Origin: a virus
Direction: 5' to 3' (one strand)
Virus record (IMG/VR): IMGVR_UViG_3300028800_000170
Coordinates: 1-42,000 of that record
Length of the DNA stretch: 42,000 bases
The notes under the pieces are model-generated. The model was not told where the DNA came from and made no database searches. It saw nothing but the letters and a program-made list of their open reading frames with translations. Positions 1 through 42,000 of the stretch are shown here, piece by piece. The position numbers and the translations under genes were made by a program. Position 1 is the stretch's first letter. The number at the start of each line of letters is the position of its first letter.

Positions 1-133
1 GTCGCCTGACATGAGTGATGCTCAGTTTGTCTGGTGCCAAGAGTATATTTCTAAGAAGGAGGCTGAAAATAGATTTCCTGACAAAATCAATGTTATCGCG
101 CCAATGGCGGGAACTCCACAACGCTACGGATCT
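1..133. repeat. Terminal redundancy, first copy
   Basis: These 133 bases recur at 41868-42000 with a single difference (C at 127, T at 41994). The repeat lies inside the portal reading frame, and the frame continues from the end of the window into its start. The simplest reading is a circular or circularly permuted genome of 41867 bp. The window stops at 42000, so the overlap may be longer. The mismatch is synonymous (TAC/TAT) and suggests two population variants or an assembly overlap, not a fixed packaging repeat. Confidence 0.93.
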
Positions 134-1618
134 TTCTACTTCCTCCCAGAAAATTACAATATGGCGAGGAACGACCTTATGGTCCTCTCATATGTCTGGT
201 ACAAGTGGAAGCGAAAAAAGAAACGCCTCTACTCTGCTAGGAAGAATGCATTTTATGACTTTGCCGGTGGAGAGGAAAACCTTGAGGCAATTCTCTACAA
301 CATCCCTGATCTGGAGGCTGTCGATGTGGAGGTTCCAACATGGAAACTTGCCACCGTCCTTAATGACCAGCTCATGTTCCAAGGTGATAACCCCCTAGGT
401 TTTGATGAGTGTCCTTTCGTGCCTTATTTTTGGAATTATGAGCCTCATATTAATTACTACGACTTAAGAGTTAGATCTTTGGTCCGCACCATGCGCGATC
501 CGCAATTTTTGTTCAATTACAAGGTAATCCAAAATAATGATATAGCTGCTGCAACTATTAATGCTGGCTGGAAGCGTAAAGTTGGTGCTGTTGCTAATGA
601 AGATAACCTAAAGAAGAGCGGACAGGGTTGGGACGTCATCATCAATGATGGCTATGAAATGGCTGACTGTGAGAAGATCATCCCCTCAGCGGTGCCAGAG
701 TCAGACCTCGCGTTGGCACAACAGATGGATGATCTGATCTGGAAGACCGCTGGGATTAACTTAGAAAATTGGTCCGGCCAAAACGATAAGCAGATCAGCT
801 CTCTAACTATGATGATGAAGCAGGCTGCTTCCCTCATGGTGTTCCAGAAGTATTTCGATCAATGGGACTACAGCGACAAACTCTTAGGAAATGTATGTTT
901 GAAGGTGCTCCTGAACAACTGGAATGCAGAAAAGGTCCAACTCTATTTAGGCAGGGAGCCATCCCCCTTCTTTTACTCGAAGGTATTCAGCAAATTTCAG
1001 ACGATTGTGGAAGAGAGCGACCTAACGCCTACACAACAGAACTTGCAGGCGCAGCAAATGCTGGACATGAATCAAATGTTTGGCAGAGAAGTGTTCCCGC
1101 CGAGCAAGATCATTCCTAAGCTCAACATCACCGGCAAAGCAGAGATCATCGAGATGCTCGAACAGCAAGAGCAACAGATGCAGATAATGCAGCAAGAACA
1201 GTCTAATATTGAACACGCTGTTCAAGATGCAGAGCTCAAAAACCTCTACAGTCAAGCTGCCTCTAACATCGCTACAGCGAGGGAAAGACATGGCAGGGCT
1301 CAGGCCGATATTGGGCTCTACGAAGAGCGTCTCAGTGAAATTACTCACAATAGGGCAATGGCTACAAAAGCGAAAATGGAAGCTCTTGAGAAGATGGTTG
1401 ATGTTACTGCTAAACTAGGAGCCATCGAAACTATGGTGAAGATGGGTGAGGTGGAGCAATTTAACGATAATCAATCTATTGCCGAAGATGCCGAAAAAGA
1501 AGATGCTAGAAAGACTAGCGAGTCCAATCAGTTCCTGATGGAGATATTAAAAGAGATCCCGGGTTTGAAACAACCCGAGCAACAAAATCCTACCCAAAAT
1601 GGTCAGGGGATGGTATAA
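2..1618 (+). CDS. Portal protein, main part (continues from 41498-41867)
   Basis: This is the C-terminal three quarters of a P22-type portal, the dodecameric ring at the packaging vertex that docks terminase and the neck. The frame is open from the first base because the gene begins near 41107 and runs through the circle closure; the ATG at 11 is internal. Visible features are the stretch SDAQFVWCQEYISKKEAENR, typical of the portal core, NPLGFDECPFVPYFW, and a glutamine-rich coiled coil near the C-terminus (EQQEQQMQIMQQEQ) like the barrel helices of these portals. If the two interruptions in the 5' part are removed, the protein is about 712 residues, close to P22 gp1 at 725. Scaffold and capsid genes follow on the same strand. 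The family call rests on recalled similarity and synteny, not a search. Confidence 0.85.
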   Translation, partial: SPDMSDAQFVWCQEYISKKEAENRFPDKINVIAPMAGTPQRYGSFYFLPENYNMARNDLMVLSYVWYKWKRKKKRLYSARKNAFYDFAGGEENLEAILYNIPDLEAVDVEVPTWKLATVLNDQLMFQGDNPLGFDECPFVPYFWNYEPHINYYDLRVRSLVRTMRDPQFLFNYKVIQNNDIAAATINAGWKRKVGAVANEDNLKKSGQGWDVIINDGYEMADCEKIIPSAVPESDLALAQQMDDLIWKTAGINLENWSGQNDKQISSLTMMMKQAASLMVFQKYFDQWDYSDKLLGNVCLKVLLNNWNAEKVQLYLGREPSPFFYSKVFSKFQTIVEESDLTPTQQNLQAQQMLDMNQMFGREVFPPSKIIPKLNITGKAEIIEMLEQQEQQMQIMQQEQSNIEHAVQDAELKNLYSQAASNIATARERHGRAQADIGLYEERLSEITHNRAMATKAKMEALEKMVDVTAKLGAIETMVKMGEVEQFNDNQSIAEDAEKEDARKTSESNQFLMEILKEIPGLKQPEQQNPTQNGQGMV

Positions 1619-3355: not shown

Positions 3356-4000
3356 ATGACTACCCCCACACCAGATCAAGCTCAAGTTGAGCAGAAATCA
3401 AACGACAAAGAGATCAACTTCGCCCAGATGAGGCAGAAGTATGAACGAGAACTGGCAGCTAAGAATGCCCAAATCGAAGAGATGCAAAGGGCTGTTCAAA
3501 GTAAAGCCGTTGTACAAGATGATGATGATGATGACTCTGACCCATATATTGACAAGAAAAGGCTAAGAAAAGAGCAAGCTAAACTTTCTCAGAATATTAA
3601 GCAGGAAACTTCCAGTGAGATACAAAGAGCGGTTAACCAGGCTCTACAAGAGGAAAGAAAGCAGAATTGGCTTAAGCAGAACAGCGACTTCTATGAAGTG
3701 CTTCAACATGCTGATAAGTTCGCCCAGCAAGACCCTGAGCTTGCAGAGACAATCCTACAGATGCCTGAAGGTTTCGAAAGGCAGAAGCTAGTCTATAAGA
3801 ACATTAAGGCTCTAGGAATCCATAAGCCTGCTGTTAAAGAGAGTTCCATACAAGACAGGATAGACGCCAACAAGAAGTCTCCATATTATCAGCCGAGCGG
3901 TCCGGGTTCTGCCCCTTATTCTCAGGTGGGCGACTTCTCCCGTCAAGGACAGGAACAGGCTTACAAGAAGATGAAAGAGTTGCAGAATAGGTTGAGGTAA
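3356..4000 (+). CDS. Scaffolding protein (putative)
   Basis: A 214-residue, highly charged and mostly helical protein with predicted coiled coil (EINFAQMRQKYERELAAKNA), an acidic run DDDDDDSDPYID near residue 55, a second helix-rich segment and a basic C-terminus ending KKMKELQNRLR. Immediate position before the major capsid gene, small size, helix content and a basic tail are the hallmarks of phage scaffolds, which direct procapsid assembly and leave before packaging. No sequence signature proves it. A weak hairpin follows the stop. Confidence 0.7.
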   Translation: MTTPTPDQAQVEQKSNDKEINFAQMRQKYERELAAKNAQIEEMQRAVQSKAVVQDDDDDDSDPYIDKKRLRKEQAKLSQNIKQETSSEIQRAVNQALQEERKQNWLKQNSDFYEVLQHADKFAQQDPELAETILQMPEGFERQKLVYKNIKALGIHKPAVKESSIQDRIDANKKSPYYQPSGPGSAPYSQVGDFSRQGQEQAYKKMKELQNRLR

Positions 4001-4034
4001 AAAAAAGGCACCCTTACGGATGCCGGTCCTTTTA
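4001..4034 (+). terminator. Weak hairpin terminator or attenuator after scaffold
   Basis: GGCA at 4007-4010 pairs with TGCC at 4021-4024, and CC/GG pairs inside one mismatch with a TTAC loop. A short T-run (TTTT) follows after five bases. This could partly separate scaffold from capsid transcripts or set their ratio. It is weaker than the hairpins at 6471 and 20202. Confidence 0.4.
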
Positions 4035-4049
4035 GTTAGAAGGAGAAAT

Positions 4050-4124
4050 ATGACTTCAAAATTCGGGCTGAGCAAGGAAATCACAAAGCCCGAAAAACCC
4101 GGAGGTACAAAGCTCTTGGTTTAA
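4050..4124 (+). CDS. 24-residue leader peptide before capsid gene
   Basis: A very short frame, MTSKFGLSKEITKPEKPGGT plus four residues, has a strong ribosome site (AAGGAG at 4040-4045) five bases before its ATG. It lies between the scaffold hairpin and about 200 bases of untranslated leader before the capsid gene. It may be a real minor peptide, a leader peptide, or the remnant of a larger gene. No homology is recognised. Confidence 0.4.
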   Translation: MTSKFGLSKEITKPEKPGGTKLLV

Positions 4125-4321
4125 ACAAATAATAGCATGATTAAAAAACTCTGGAAAGTAAATTCCACTTGTTTTATTGGAAAGTTTCGCCAGTGATGCG
4201 TTACTCACTAAAATAATCTTTTGCGTAAGAAGGCTCGCAACTTCGACAGGTGTTTGGGAACAGCGTAGGAAAGTTCGCTTACTGACCAACATCAAATACT
4301 AACCTCTTCTATGAGGTAACT
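4125..4321 (+). promoter_or_regulatory. Structured leader of the major capsid gene
   Basis: This stretch of about 200 bases has no convincing gene. I see several short hairpins: AGTGA/TCACT near 4193, TTGCG/CGCAA near 4222, AGCG/CGCT near 4262, and CCTC at 4303-4306 with GAGG at 4313-4316. The last one includes the capsid ribosome site itself. GGAAAGT occurs three times. A minus-strand frame of 79 codons is present but has no protein-like features. The region probably shapes capsid mRNA stability or translation. Confidence 0.35.
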
Positions 4322-5290
4322 ATGTCGATTACGACAACAGGGAATCTAGGCCCGCTTATTCTCCAGTCGCTTGCGCCTGCGATGTTGTACGTGCCTACTC
4401 CTACAATGAATTACATTACAGTCTGCGATAAAGTTAGTATGCCTGCAAACGGCGGTACTACTTGCAGATTCATGCGCCCTCGCGCACTACAACCGCCCAC
4501 TACACAGTTGGGTAACTCCGGGATTGATCCACCAGCACAAGTTCCGCAGAGAGACATAATTGATTCTCAAATGGCATTCTTTGGTACCGGCTGCATCATT
4601 AATGAGCAGGTTATCCTCCAAGACCAAGAAGGCGTTTTGGCATGGGTTTCTGAGCGTTTGGCAGTTGCTATGCGTCAGGCTGAAGACTTGATCCTTCGTG
4701 ATTATATTGTTTCGGCTGCGTCTGAAATCAACGCTGGTGGCGGTACTAACGGCGACAACCCTTCAAACCTTGGTTTGTCGGACTTCTCGCTTGTTGCTAC
4801 TACTCTAGACACAAACAACGCCTACAAATTCATGTCGGGTATCGAAGGGATGGATCGGTTTGGTACCGGCCCAATTCGTTCGAGTTACTTCATGCTTTCG
4901 AGCACTGAACTACAGACTGACTTTGACGCGTTGACAGGTTCTGGCGTATTTAACAACTGGAACTATCCAAACAACACATCGGCTCTTCCTTCCGAGTGGG
5001 GTTCCGTATATAACCTACGGATTCTTACTAGCTCTGAAGCACCCGTTGCACGTGGAGCGTCTGCCAATGGTAACGATGTTTACTACAACACAGTGTTGGG
5101 TAAGCAAGCTATCACGCACATTAACCAAGACGGTTATAGCATGAATCTTATCTATAGAGATCCATACTATTCTGGCATGTTGGCACAAAATGCCACTTTG
5201 GCCGTGAAGTTCGCCCAGGCCCAGGCAATCACCCAAGATACCGCTATCCGTAATTTGCTATGCACAAGACTTAGCAATCTAGGAGTGTAA
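4322..5290 (+). CDS. Major capsid protein (N4 gp56-like)
   Basis: A 322-residue protein starting MSITTTGNLGPLILQSLAPA, the usual N-terminal pattern of N4 gp56-family HK97-fold capsid proteins. The middle contains PPAQVPQRDIIDSQMAFFGT and a helix-rich segment SERLAVAMRQAEDLILRDYI, matching the spine helix of that fold. The C-terminus (NATLAVKFAQAQAITQDTAI) also fits the family's closing segment. It follows the putative scaffold and precedes head decoration-type proteins. The start is fixed by GAGG five bases upstream. The call is from motif pattern and synteny. Confidence 0.8.
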   Translation: MSITTTGNLGPLILQSLAPAMLYVPTPTMNYITVCDKVSMPANGGTTCRFMRPRALQPPTTQLGNSGIDPPAQVPQRDIIDSQMAFFGTGCIINEQVILQDQEGVLAWVSERLAVAMRQAEDLILRDYIVSAASEINAGGGTNGDNPSNLGLSDFSLVATTLDTNNAYKFMSGIEGMDRFGTGPIRSSYFMLSSTELQTDFDALTGSGVFNNWNYPNNTSALPSEWGSVYNLRILTSSEAPVARGASANGNDVYYNTVLGKQAITHINQDGYSMNLIYRDPYYSGMLAQNATLAVKFAQAQAITQDTAIRNLLCTRLSNLGV

Positions 5291-40341: not shown

Positions 40342-40440
40342 TTAGTATTTGTGTTATAATATTCGTAAGCCTAGGGGGCACCCGAAAGGCGGTTTCCGAC
40401 CGCTTGGCTTGCTTTCATTCGGATCAACTACGGAGGTTGT
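40342..40440 (+). promoter_or_regulatory. Extended -10 promoter and structured leader of the HNH gene
   Basis: TGTTATAAT at 40352-40360 is a perfect extended -10 box. The transcript leader can fold as a three-way junction: AAGCC 40367-40371 with GGCTT 40406-40410, enclosing GGG/CCC (40374-40383) and GCGG/CCGC (40389-40403). A last hairpin CAAC/GTTG (40425-40439) holds the ribosome site GGAGG in its loop. The endonuclease thus has its own promoter and possibly controlled translation. Confidence 0.55.
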
Positions 40441-41028
40441 ATGTCAAAAAAATGCATTTCCTGCGATGAGATTTTAAGCATCAAAGCTAAAAAAGATGCC
40501 TGCAAAGCTTGTCGAAAAAAAGAAACAGCCAAAAAGTACATTCAAAATCATAAAGAAAAATTTAATACTTACCAAAAAGAATACAGAGAAAAAAATAGAG
40601 AACTTTGTAATGAGAGAGTTAGAAAAAGCTATTGGAAAAATCCGCAAAAATATAACGAAAAGGGCAAGATCCATTATAGGGAAGTAAACGGAATTCCCTT
40701 AGATTCTCCGTTTAAAAAAAAGAAAAATGGTGAGGGCAATATAGATGCTCAGGGATACAAAACTATCACTAAAAAGGGGCATCCAAATCAAATGGATGCA
40801 AAGGGACGTATAAGAGAGCATATCTTTGTTATGTCTGAACACCTAGGTAGACCTCTTTTTAAGGGAGAAACGGTACATCATAAGAACGGTGTGCGAACTG
40901 ATAATCGAATAGAAAATCTTGAACTTTGGAATAGGGGACAACCACCCGGCCAAAGAGTTGAGGATAGAATCGCCTATTACATCGAATTCTTAAAGCAATA
41001 TGGTTATGAAGTAAATCGCTTGCCTTAA
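40441..41028 (+). CDS. HNH homing endonuclease
   Basis: A 195-residue protein. The N-terminus carries two zinc knuckles (CISCDEI, CKACRKK), then a basic coiled region, then an HNH_3-type domain: GYKTITKKGHPNQMDAKGRI, REHIFVMSEHLGRPLFKGET, VHHKNGVRTDNRIENLELWN. The catalytic H-H...N...N order is complete. Such enzymes nick or cut intron- or insert-free alleles of a neighbouring gene. It lies free-standing between terminase and portal, 80 bp before a portal gene that holds an intron and a coding gap. Confidence 0.9.
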   Translation: MSKKCISCDEILSIKAKKDACKACRKKETAKKYIQNHKEKFNTYQKEYREKNRELCNERVRKSYWKNPQKYNEKGKIHYREVNGIPLDSPFKKKKNGEGNIDAQGYKTITKKGHPNQMDAKGRIREHIFVMSEHLGRPLFKGETVHHKNGVRTDNRIENLELWNRGQPPGQRVEDRIAYYIEFLKQYGYEVNRLP

Positions 41029-41106: not shown

Positions 41107-41296
41107 ATTTCTTTTTATTATCCACCTTGGAACAATGCTCTGGAACCTAATCAGGGTAATGTAAGACAGTGGCTTGATAATCTTTATTCGAAATTTCAAC
41201 CGATCGAACAGTCTTTTTTTTAAAAGCGGGACTGTTAATAGAAAAGTGGAGTGCGCTGGAATCAGTCAAATATTGATACCCTTTTCTATGCAGGCT
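41107..41296 (+). CDS. Portal protein, 5' exon (interrupted by a 39-nt gap)
   Basis: The N-terminus of the portal reads SFYYPPWNNALEPNQGNVRQ, WLDNLYSKFQPIEQSF (41107-41217), then after a 39-nt gap WNQSNIDTLFYAG (41257-41296, ending in the first base of the next codon). Both parts are in the same frame as the rest of the gene. The usual portal pattern in this family joins ...PIEQSF directly to W-N-E-x-x-I-D-T-x-F-x-A-G. The only possible start is ATT at 41107, five bases after a perfect AGGAGG; no ATG, GTG or TTG is available. Removing gap and intron gives a continuous frame. Confidence 0.75.
41218..41256 (+). other. 39-nt in-frame gap with stop codons inside portal gene
   Basis: Thirteen triplets including TAA, TAA and TAG separate ...EQSF from WNQSN.... 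The frame is the same on both sides. The gap's left edge forms a hairpin: AACAGTC 41207-41213 with GACTGTT 41230-41236, a T8A4 run inside. CAGTC also occurs again at 41263-41267. A GGAG lies six bases before the resuming TGG codon. These are features of a ribosomal bypass (T4 gene 60 type), but matching take-off and landing codons are not obvious. Other explanations are RNA removal, assembly error or inactivation. Confidence 0.5.
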
Positions 41297-41497
41297 TGAG
41301 GTACGGGGCCTGTTTAAATCTCCTCTAATTGACTTGGACCTCCCTATGGGAAGACAAGGGGCAAGCGAAAGCAGCCTGAACGACTAAATGAGGAGACCTA
41401 GCAATAGGAAGCGATAGTCTGAACTCTATGGTAACATAGAGAGGGAGATCCGAAGAGGTCACCCCGCCACGAAAGTGGTCACAAAAGTAACAGACGG
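41297..41497 (+). ncRNA. Group I intron in portal gene
   Basis: Core elements in order: P1, exon GCAGGCT (41290-41296) with guide GGCCTGT (41307-41313) and U-G at the splice site; P3 CTCCTC 41320-41325 with GAGGAG 41390-41395; P4-P6 between, with GAAA loop; P7 GACTA 41382-41386 with TAGTC 41415-41419, in contexts AACGACTAAATG and GAAGCGATAGTC matching the conserved R and S elements; P8 CCTA-GCAA-TAGG 41397-41408; P9 CTCTATG-GTAA-CATAGAG 41424-41441. The terminal G is at 41497. Splicing joins GGC-T to CA-CAA and restores the portal frame (YAG-SQTFVN). It encodes no protein. Confidence 0.88.
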
Positions 41498-42000
41498 CAC
41501 AAACTTTCGTTAATAGATACTTCAACTTTTCGCCCACGACGTCGTACCAACAGTACTACTTCAATATTATACAACAGCCCGTAAACATGATCACGGGCTA
41601 TGAGCGCCAACACCGTAAAAACTTCACCTATGTTCCCACTGAAGGTGCCGACCCTCAAACCACCGACGACTACACCACCTTAATGACCCACGTCTGCAAT
41701 GCGGGTGACATTCATGAGCAGAAATCCAAAGCAAAAGAACTCGCCTGTGTCTCAGGCATGGTACTCCTACAGCCCTACCTAGATTATACTGGTGATGACC
41801 AGGCACAAGGGACGTTGCGCACAAAGGTCTGGGAATATAATGCCTTCCTAGTAGATCCTTACTTTAGGTCGCCTGACATGAGTGATGCTCAGTTTGTCTG
41901 GTGCCAAGAGTATATTTCTAAGAAGGAGGCTGAAAATAGATTTCCTGACAAAATCAATGTTATCGCGCCAATGGCGGGAACTCCACAACGCTATGGATCT
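41498..42000 (+). CDS. Portal protein, 3' exon (continues at position 1)
   Basis: The exon begins with the last two bases of a split codon and reads SQTFVNRYFNFSPTTSYQQY, YFNIIQQPVNMITGYERQHR, KNFTYVPTEGADPQTTDDYT and KVWEYNAFLVDPYFRSPDM. Helical NxI...VNMI-x-G-x-x-R-x-x-R followed by F-L-V-D-P-Y-F is the signature stretch of P22-type portals. An in-frame TAA at 41488 lies upstream within the intron, so this exon depends on splicing. It runs across the closure of the circle into 2-1618. Confidence 0.85.
41868..42000. repeat. Terminal redundancy, second copy
   Basis: Second copy of positions 1-133, differing only at 41994 (T for C). See the first copy for interpretation. Confidence 0.93.

Follow-up and report, generated by a model that had tools for sequence, protein, structure and literature searches.

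In a 42,000-nucleotide (nt) stretch of viral DNA (positions 1 to 42,000 of IMG/VR record IMGVR_UViG_3300028800_000170, hereafter the window), the portal gene is interrupted by an insert of 39 nt and, 43 nt further on, by a complete group I intron of 201 nt. We propose, with a probability of about 0.8, that the 39-nt insert is a group I intron devoid of a catalytic core, which is spliced by the core of the complete intron. Comparison with related loci suggests that phages probably carry a whole family of such nonautonomous introns (29–59 nt, called minis in the following), each spliced by the core of the group I intron that follows it on its own transcript. A preliminary description of the window had interpreted the insert as a ribosomal bypass.

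Positions 1–133 of the window are repeated at 41868–42000 with one mismatch. The record is a circular or circularly permuted virus genome of ~41.9 kb, and because it is circular the portal gene continues at 2–1618. The portal identity given by the preliminary description is confirmed by domain matches (Table 1). Exon 1, read from the ATT at 41107, gives ISFYYPPWNNALEPNQGNVRQWLDNLYSKFQPIEQSF, and the same frame carries WNQSNIDTLFYAG (41257–41295) beyond a gap containing TAA, TAA, and TAG, as described earlier. Uninterrupted relatives read ...FQPIEQS-R-WNQSNIDTLFYAG-S-QTFVNRYFNF..., and because they have S-R-W at this site the insert is placed at 41215–41253, between Ser (TCT) and Arg (CGC). When both inserts are taken out, the portal sequence is as in 107 uninterrupted relatives. 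The gap itself and the argument that some mechanism must join the parts both stand. The right-hand limit given earlier, 41296, is the 5′ splice site of the second insert, which had gone unseen.

Group I introns are defined by having their own ribozyme. In the 39 nt there is no P3–P9 catalytic core with a P7 G site, only P1, P10, and a tail, and for this reason we file the mini as a core-less, nonautonomous derivative of group I introns; if a core is required, the mini falls outside the group I introns proper. In its P1, the exon sequence AACAGUCU pairs with the guide GGACUGUU over 8 bp, with U.G at the splice site. P10 is formed by AGCG and CGCU, and the last base of the insert is G.

The 201-nt insert, by sequence and fold comparison, is an ordinary phage group I intron. 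It interrupts a Ser codon that follows Gly. The 27 introns of this type with homology-set boundaries have a long series of invariant core bases in common, and their fold comprises P3, P4, P5, P6, P8, and P9-type helices, with two-sided changes in 36 of 42 pairs. Covarying P3–P9 core helices, P1, and a terminal G place it among group I introns. P7, a pseudoknot helix of a kind that the fold program does not draw, was assigned by eye. Rfam gave no group I match in the window, but this is no evidence against such an intron, because five other intron-bearing loci gave none either. A blastn search with the 201-nt intron returned weak matches in Staphylococcus, Bacillus, and other phage records. The two inserts do not form a twintron, as 43 nt of portal exon 2 lie between them, nor a split (trans-splicing) group I intron, as the core of the downstream intron is whole and the mini adds none.

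We infer splicing in cis in the following order. The mini would keep the substrate side alone, i.e., the exon 1 guide (P1), the exon 2 pairing (P10), and the terminal G, elements whose roles in group I splicing are standard knowledge (PMC3984707). Its P1 would dock in the core of the downstream 201-nt intron, GTP would cut after U41214, and the terminal G of the mini would enter the G site, so that exon 1 would be joined to CGC. The full intron's own P1 would dock next, and the full intron would remove itself. The predicted exon junctions are GAACAGTCT^CGCTGGAATCA (39 nt removed) and GCAGGCT^CACAAACTTT (201 nt removed). Engineered ribozymes, the trans-excision ribozymes and spliceozymes, are able to carry out such excision (PMC4094466).

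The case for a family rests on 31 core-less minis, gathered by an insert pattern scan at the same codon, a search for short coding gaps (236 loci), and two additional samples of portals; we took short gaps to be alignment noise, and left them out, if they were of low identity or on the opposite strand. In the portal gene they occupy the sites PP^W, WL^D, QP^I, and QS^R (the caret marks the insert). Beyond it they are found in a major head gene (phrog_1357) and in the P22-type coat gene (phrog_283, PF11651), the latter in a separate phage group. All 31 have T (U) before the insert and G at its end. With free choice of the guide, the summed P1 and P10 score of the 31 minis is 377, compared with 190.8 in dinucleotide shuffles (standard deviation [SD] 8.4, maximum 219 in 1,000). 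Compensatory changes are found among minis of one and the same site. At QS^R, CAGUCU/GGACUG contrasts with CAGGCU/GGCCUG (in L231 and L077) or GGUCUG, and at WL^D, AGUGGCU/GGCCACU contrasts with CGUGGCU/GGCCACG, while P10 varies among CGAC/GUCG, CGAU/AUCG, and AGAC/GUCU. In the coat gene, P1 is GCUGUGGU/GCCUCAGU or GCAGUGGU/GCCUCUGC, with one U.U mismatch throughout. Single-strand folding of the minis shows a stability no greater than that of shuffles, which says nothing either way.

These data bear on three other explanations of the 39 nt. An assembly or sequencing error, which the T8 run at the left edge and the single metagenomic record might suggest, has a negligible probability, as homologous yet different minis occur at the same codon in independent assemblies. 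The bypass interpretation had drawn on the in-frame stops, the adjoining HNH gene, and a left-edge hairpin (AACAGTC/GACTGTT). The hairpin is confirmed, but it corresponds to P1, which together with P10 and the terminal G covaries across relatives, and take-off and landing codons are unmatched (TCT or TTT at the left edge, CGC at the right edge), as the preliminary description had itself conceded. Furthermore, the second interruption 43 nt on needs RNA removal anyway: a bypass alone would end at TGA 41297, inside the second insert. The preliminary description had named RNA removal as the outcome that would refute a bypass, and the comparison with relatives points to such removal; a bypass as in T4 gene 60 is very unlikely. 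Lastly, the insert might be the remnant of a decayed intron whose core was deleted, the portal being dead or made by rare events only. The insert indeed lacks a core, and one locus (L218) shows decay of the cassette, but the same anatomy with compensatory changes recurs in 31 diverse loci. Portals also differ at few nonsynonymous sites (pN ~0.12–0.20, leaving out L009, where an indel upsets the alignment), whereas synonymous sites have reached saturation. This pattern of substitution indicates that the portal is under strong purifying selection and that the gene is not dead, and simple decay is very improbable.

The position of the minis points to a shared core. A full group I intron lies 3′ of the mini in the same gene in all 31 cases, and in 28 of them its core motif starts 54–94 nt past the end of the mini. 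The exceptions include L213, where the motif starts at 121 nt, and L128, where the core has diverged; L067 has a variant motif, ATTGACTTGAA, at the same place. Among 137 distinct portal loci, a downstream full intron is present in 16/16 with a mini and in 2/121 without (p = 5e-19, as a guide). Downstream of minis at WL^D, full introns occupy four different sites. The two loci with two minis each, L055 and L327, have a downstream intron for each mini. In these loci (L055, ~3990–4620; L327, 3274–3850, reverse strand), the order mini, full, mini, full is found within the first ~45 portal codons. Changing partner sites and one intron per mini point to the need for a nearby core on the same RNA, not for one particular partner.

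Minis might instead be spliced in trans, by whichever excised group I intron is free, in which case the neighboring intron would merely reflect joint inheritance by homing. Minis and full introns do travel with HNH genes, and trans-excision works in engineered systems; yet the full intron is always downstream, mostly at 54–94 nt, its site varies, and where a gene has two minis each of them has a full intron, and we regard splicing in trans as unlikely. The presence of two P1s ahead of one core might also mean that the 39-nt site is an alternative 5′ splice site of the downstream intron, giving a product that skips exon 2; phage Twort is a known case of exon skipping (PMC10136302). However, the mini forms a P10 with a partner of its own and ends with G at a 3′ site whose use gives S-R-W again, and skipping the 43 nt of exon 2 would shift the frame, which makes this alternative extremely unlikely.

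Several points weigh against splicing of the minis by the neighboring core. The support comes from sequence comparison, and the core would have to release its own P1 for that of the mini. The loci share ancestry and some were fetched by insert-pattern scans, so that all p-values given here are guides only. With aligned guides, 91.8% of P1/P10 cells are paired compared with 50.6% in shuffles (SD 2.2), and covariation scores 1.00, compared with 0.22 in shuffles and 0.13–0.28 in slid registers, but these figures alone overstate the case, as the guide position was picked in each mini for best pairing; the free-guide shuffle test given above corrects for this choice. Finally, four coat-gene minis with a U.U mismatch in P1 are individually not significant, and the non-portal minis come largely from loci fetched for holding the core motif.

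Table 1. Coordinates of the portal gene, its inserts, and the adjoining genes in the window
Feature	Position	Strand	Remarks
Putative core-less group I mini-intron, 39 nt	41215..41253	+	Boundaries by homology; U before, G last
P1 of the mini, strand in the 5′ exon, AACAGTCT	41207..41214	+	Pairs with 41229–41236; covaries in relatives
Internal guide of the mini, GGACTGTT	41229..41236	+	U.G at splice site
P10 strand of the mini, AGCG	41225..41228	+	Pairs with exon 2 CGCT, 41254–41257
Complete group I intron, 201 nt	41297..41497	+	Boundaries from 78 homologues; core fold with covariation
P1 of the 201-nt intron	41291–41296 with 41307–41312		
ATTGACTTGGA of the 201-nt intron	41328–41338		
P7 strands of the 201-nt intron	41382–41386 and 41415–41419		GACT/AGTC, read by eye
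Portal exon 1	41107..41214	+	Apparent start ATT; homology to uninterrupted portals
Portal exon 2	41254..41296	+	RWNQSNIDTLFYAG and first base of following codon; homology
Portal exon 3, first part	41498..42000	+	Runs on at 2–1618 across record ends
Portal exon 3, remainder	2..1618	+	P22-type portal; PF16510, phrog_156
Free-standing HNH endonuclease gene	40441..41028	+	PF13392 E = 3e-9, PHROG HNH E = 3e-23; linked to interrupted portals
int-alpA-like RNA, leader of HNH gene	40364..40425	+	Rfam RF02996, 29 bits, E = 0.0017, below gathering score

The HNH gene upstream of the portal, already noticed in the preliminary description, is confirmed by its PF13392 and PHROG matches. The suggestion that it forms a mobile cassette with the gap agrees with its distribution, as 23/28 interrupted portals, but only 12/106 intact ones, have an HNH gene immediately 5′ of them (p = 1e-12). 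The endonuclease gene is thus linked to the interrupted site, as in a homing cassette, and the distribution suggests that it probably encodes a homing endonuclease that acts on the portal site and loses its target when the insert is present. An insert at the probable HNH cut site would thus be protective, and the HNH gene would spread together with the mini and the full intron as one cassette. Two loci, L080 and L502, have the HNH gene and the full intron without the mini, as would be expected if any insert close to the HNH target suffices. In L218 (9050–9280, reverse strand), a remnant of a window-type HNH gene with its middle deleted lies beside an intact mini and full intron. A full-score copy of RF02996 (49.5 bits) is found upstream of the HNH gene of L008 (3614–3678), and a similar motif in L074. 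The large terminase genes of L074 (2928–3446) and L224 (1578–2552) contain intein-like sequences, judged by eye, with ends like ...NFVANGIVISNC; that of L224 contains an HNH frame.

The S-R-W codon of the portal is also the site of a second class of insert, termed class B, found in 11 loci (L014, L018, L031, L034, L054, L207, L214, L232, L235, L360, and L498). These are long hairpins of 47–60 nt (e.g., L014, 2354–2404), with folding z scores of −5.7 and −9.6 in the two cases folded. They contain in-frame stops, have no group I intron nearby, and mostly lie beside the same HNH gene; in the IMG/VR pattern scan, this hairpin type occurs at the S-R-W site only. All 11 start with CGG, which accounts for only 3 of 103 Arg codons of intact portals (p = 6e-13), and nine return at CGN. 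Class B inserts are unrelated in kind to the minis and are better candidates for a possible bypass than the gap in the window, but in L018 and L498 the right edge is not CGN and the frame is shifted by two.

Apparent ATT, ATC, or ACG starts such as that of exon 1 are found in 50 of 108 portal genes of the phage group, with a GGAGG-like site just 5′, and most are preceded by a short open stretch without ATG, GTG, or TTG. A tblastn search with a 137-amino-acid piece of the portal found no relative among GenBank phages, and a search of a genome collection gave four loci only, on contigs of metagenome-assembled genomes from mixed phyla. Related portals in IMG/VR number in the hundreds (275 stretches in one sample, 343 in another).

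The minis resemble several known systems in part. Phage group I introns, for example those of Twort and the Bastillevirinae (PMC11878797, PMC10136302), likewise have a P1 with U.G, a P10, and a terminal G, interrupt essential genes, and are linked to endonuclease genes, but the minis lack the P3–P9 core and are of 29–59 nt. In engineered trans-excision ribozymes and spliceozymes (PMC4094466), a core excises an internal segment outside the ribozyme and joins its flanks, as proposed here, whereas the minis are natural, have their own guide in the segment, and have the core on the same RNA, usually 54–94 nt downstream. The tandem introns of Twort orf142 and of Coxiella 23S rRNA (cited in PMC10136302) also flank a short exon, but both members have cores, whereas in the portal pair only the downstream one does. 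Organelle group III introns (degenerate group II introns) and twintrons (PMC8393795) have likewise lost catalytic domains, yet they have group II chemistry and are nested, whereas minis have group I ends and lie side by side with their partners. T4 gene 60 shares with the window a short noncoding gap, a probable endonuclease hot spot, and a free-standing HNH gene, and its bypass gap is similar in size to the class B hairpins; the gap in the window differs from it by its unmatched take-off and landing codons and by its splice-site anatomy. The HNH gene adjoining gene 60 is mobA, and not mobE as the preliminary description had it, the latter being located between nrdB and nrdA (PMC2988022).

In open-access literature (subscription papers being outside the search) we found no report of a natural core-less group I intron, nor did key terms retrieve one in the Bastillevirinae intron survey (PMC11878797). 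As far as we could find in that literature, engineered RNAs are the only described case of two introns that share one ribozyme. If our interpretation is true, one ribozyme serves two introns. The minis would then be the equivalent in nature of the engineered spliceozyme, and group I introns would offer a parallel to the proposed loss of catalytic parts by spliceosomal introns. To our knowledge, the minis would be the smallest group I-type introns. They would explain essential phage genes that are now annotated as broken, and they show that two unrelated kinds of insert occupy a single probable endonuclease hot spot. If confirmed, the minis would be a case from nature in which introns have come to depend on a common catalyst, as is postulated for the transition from group II introns to the spliceosome.
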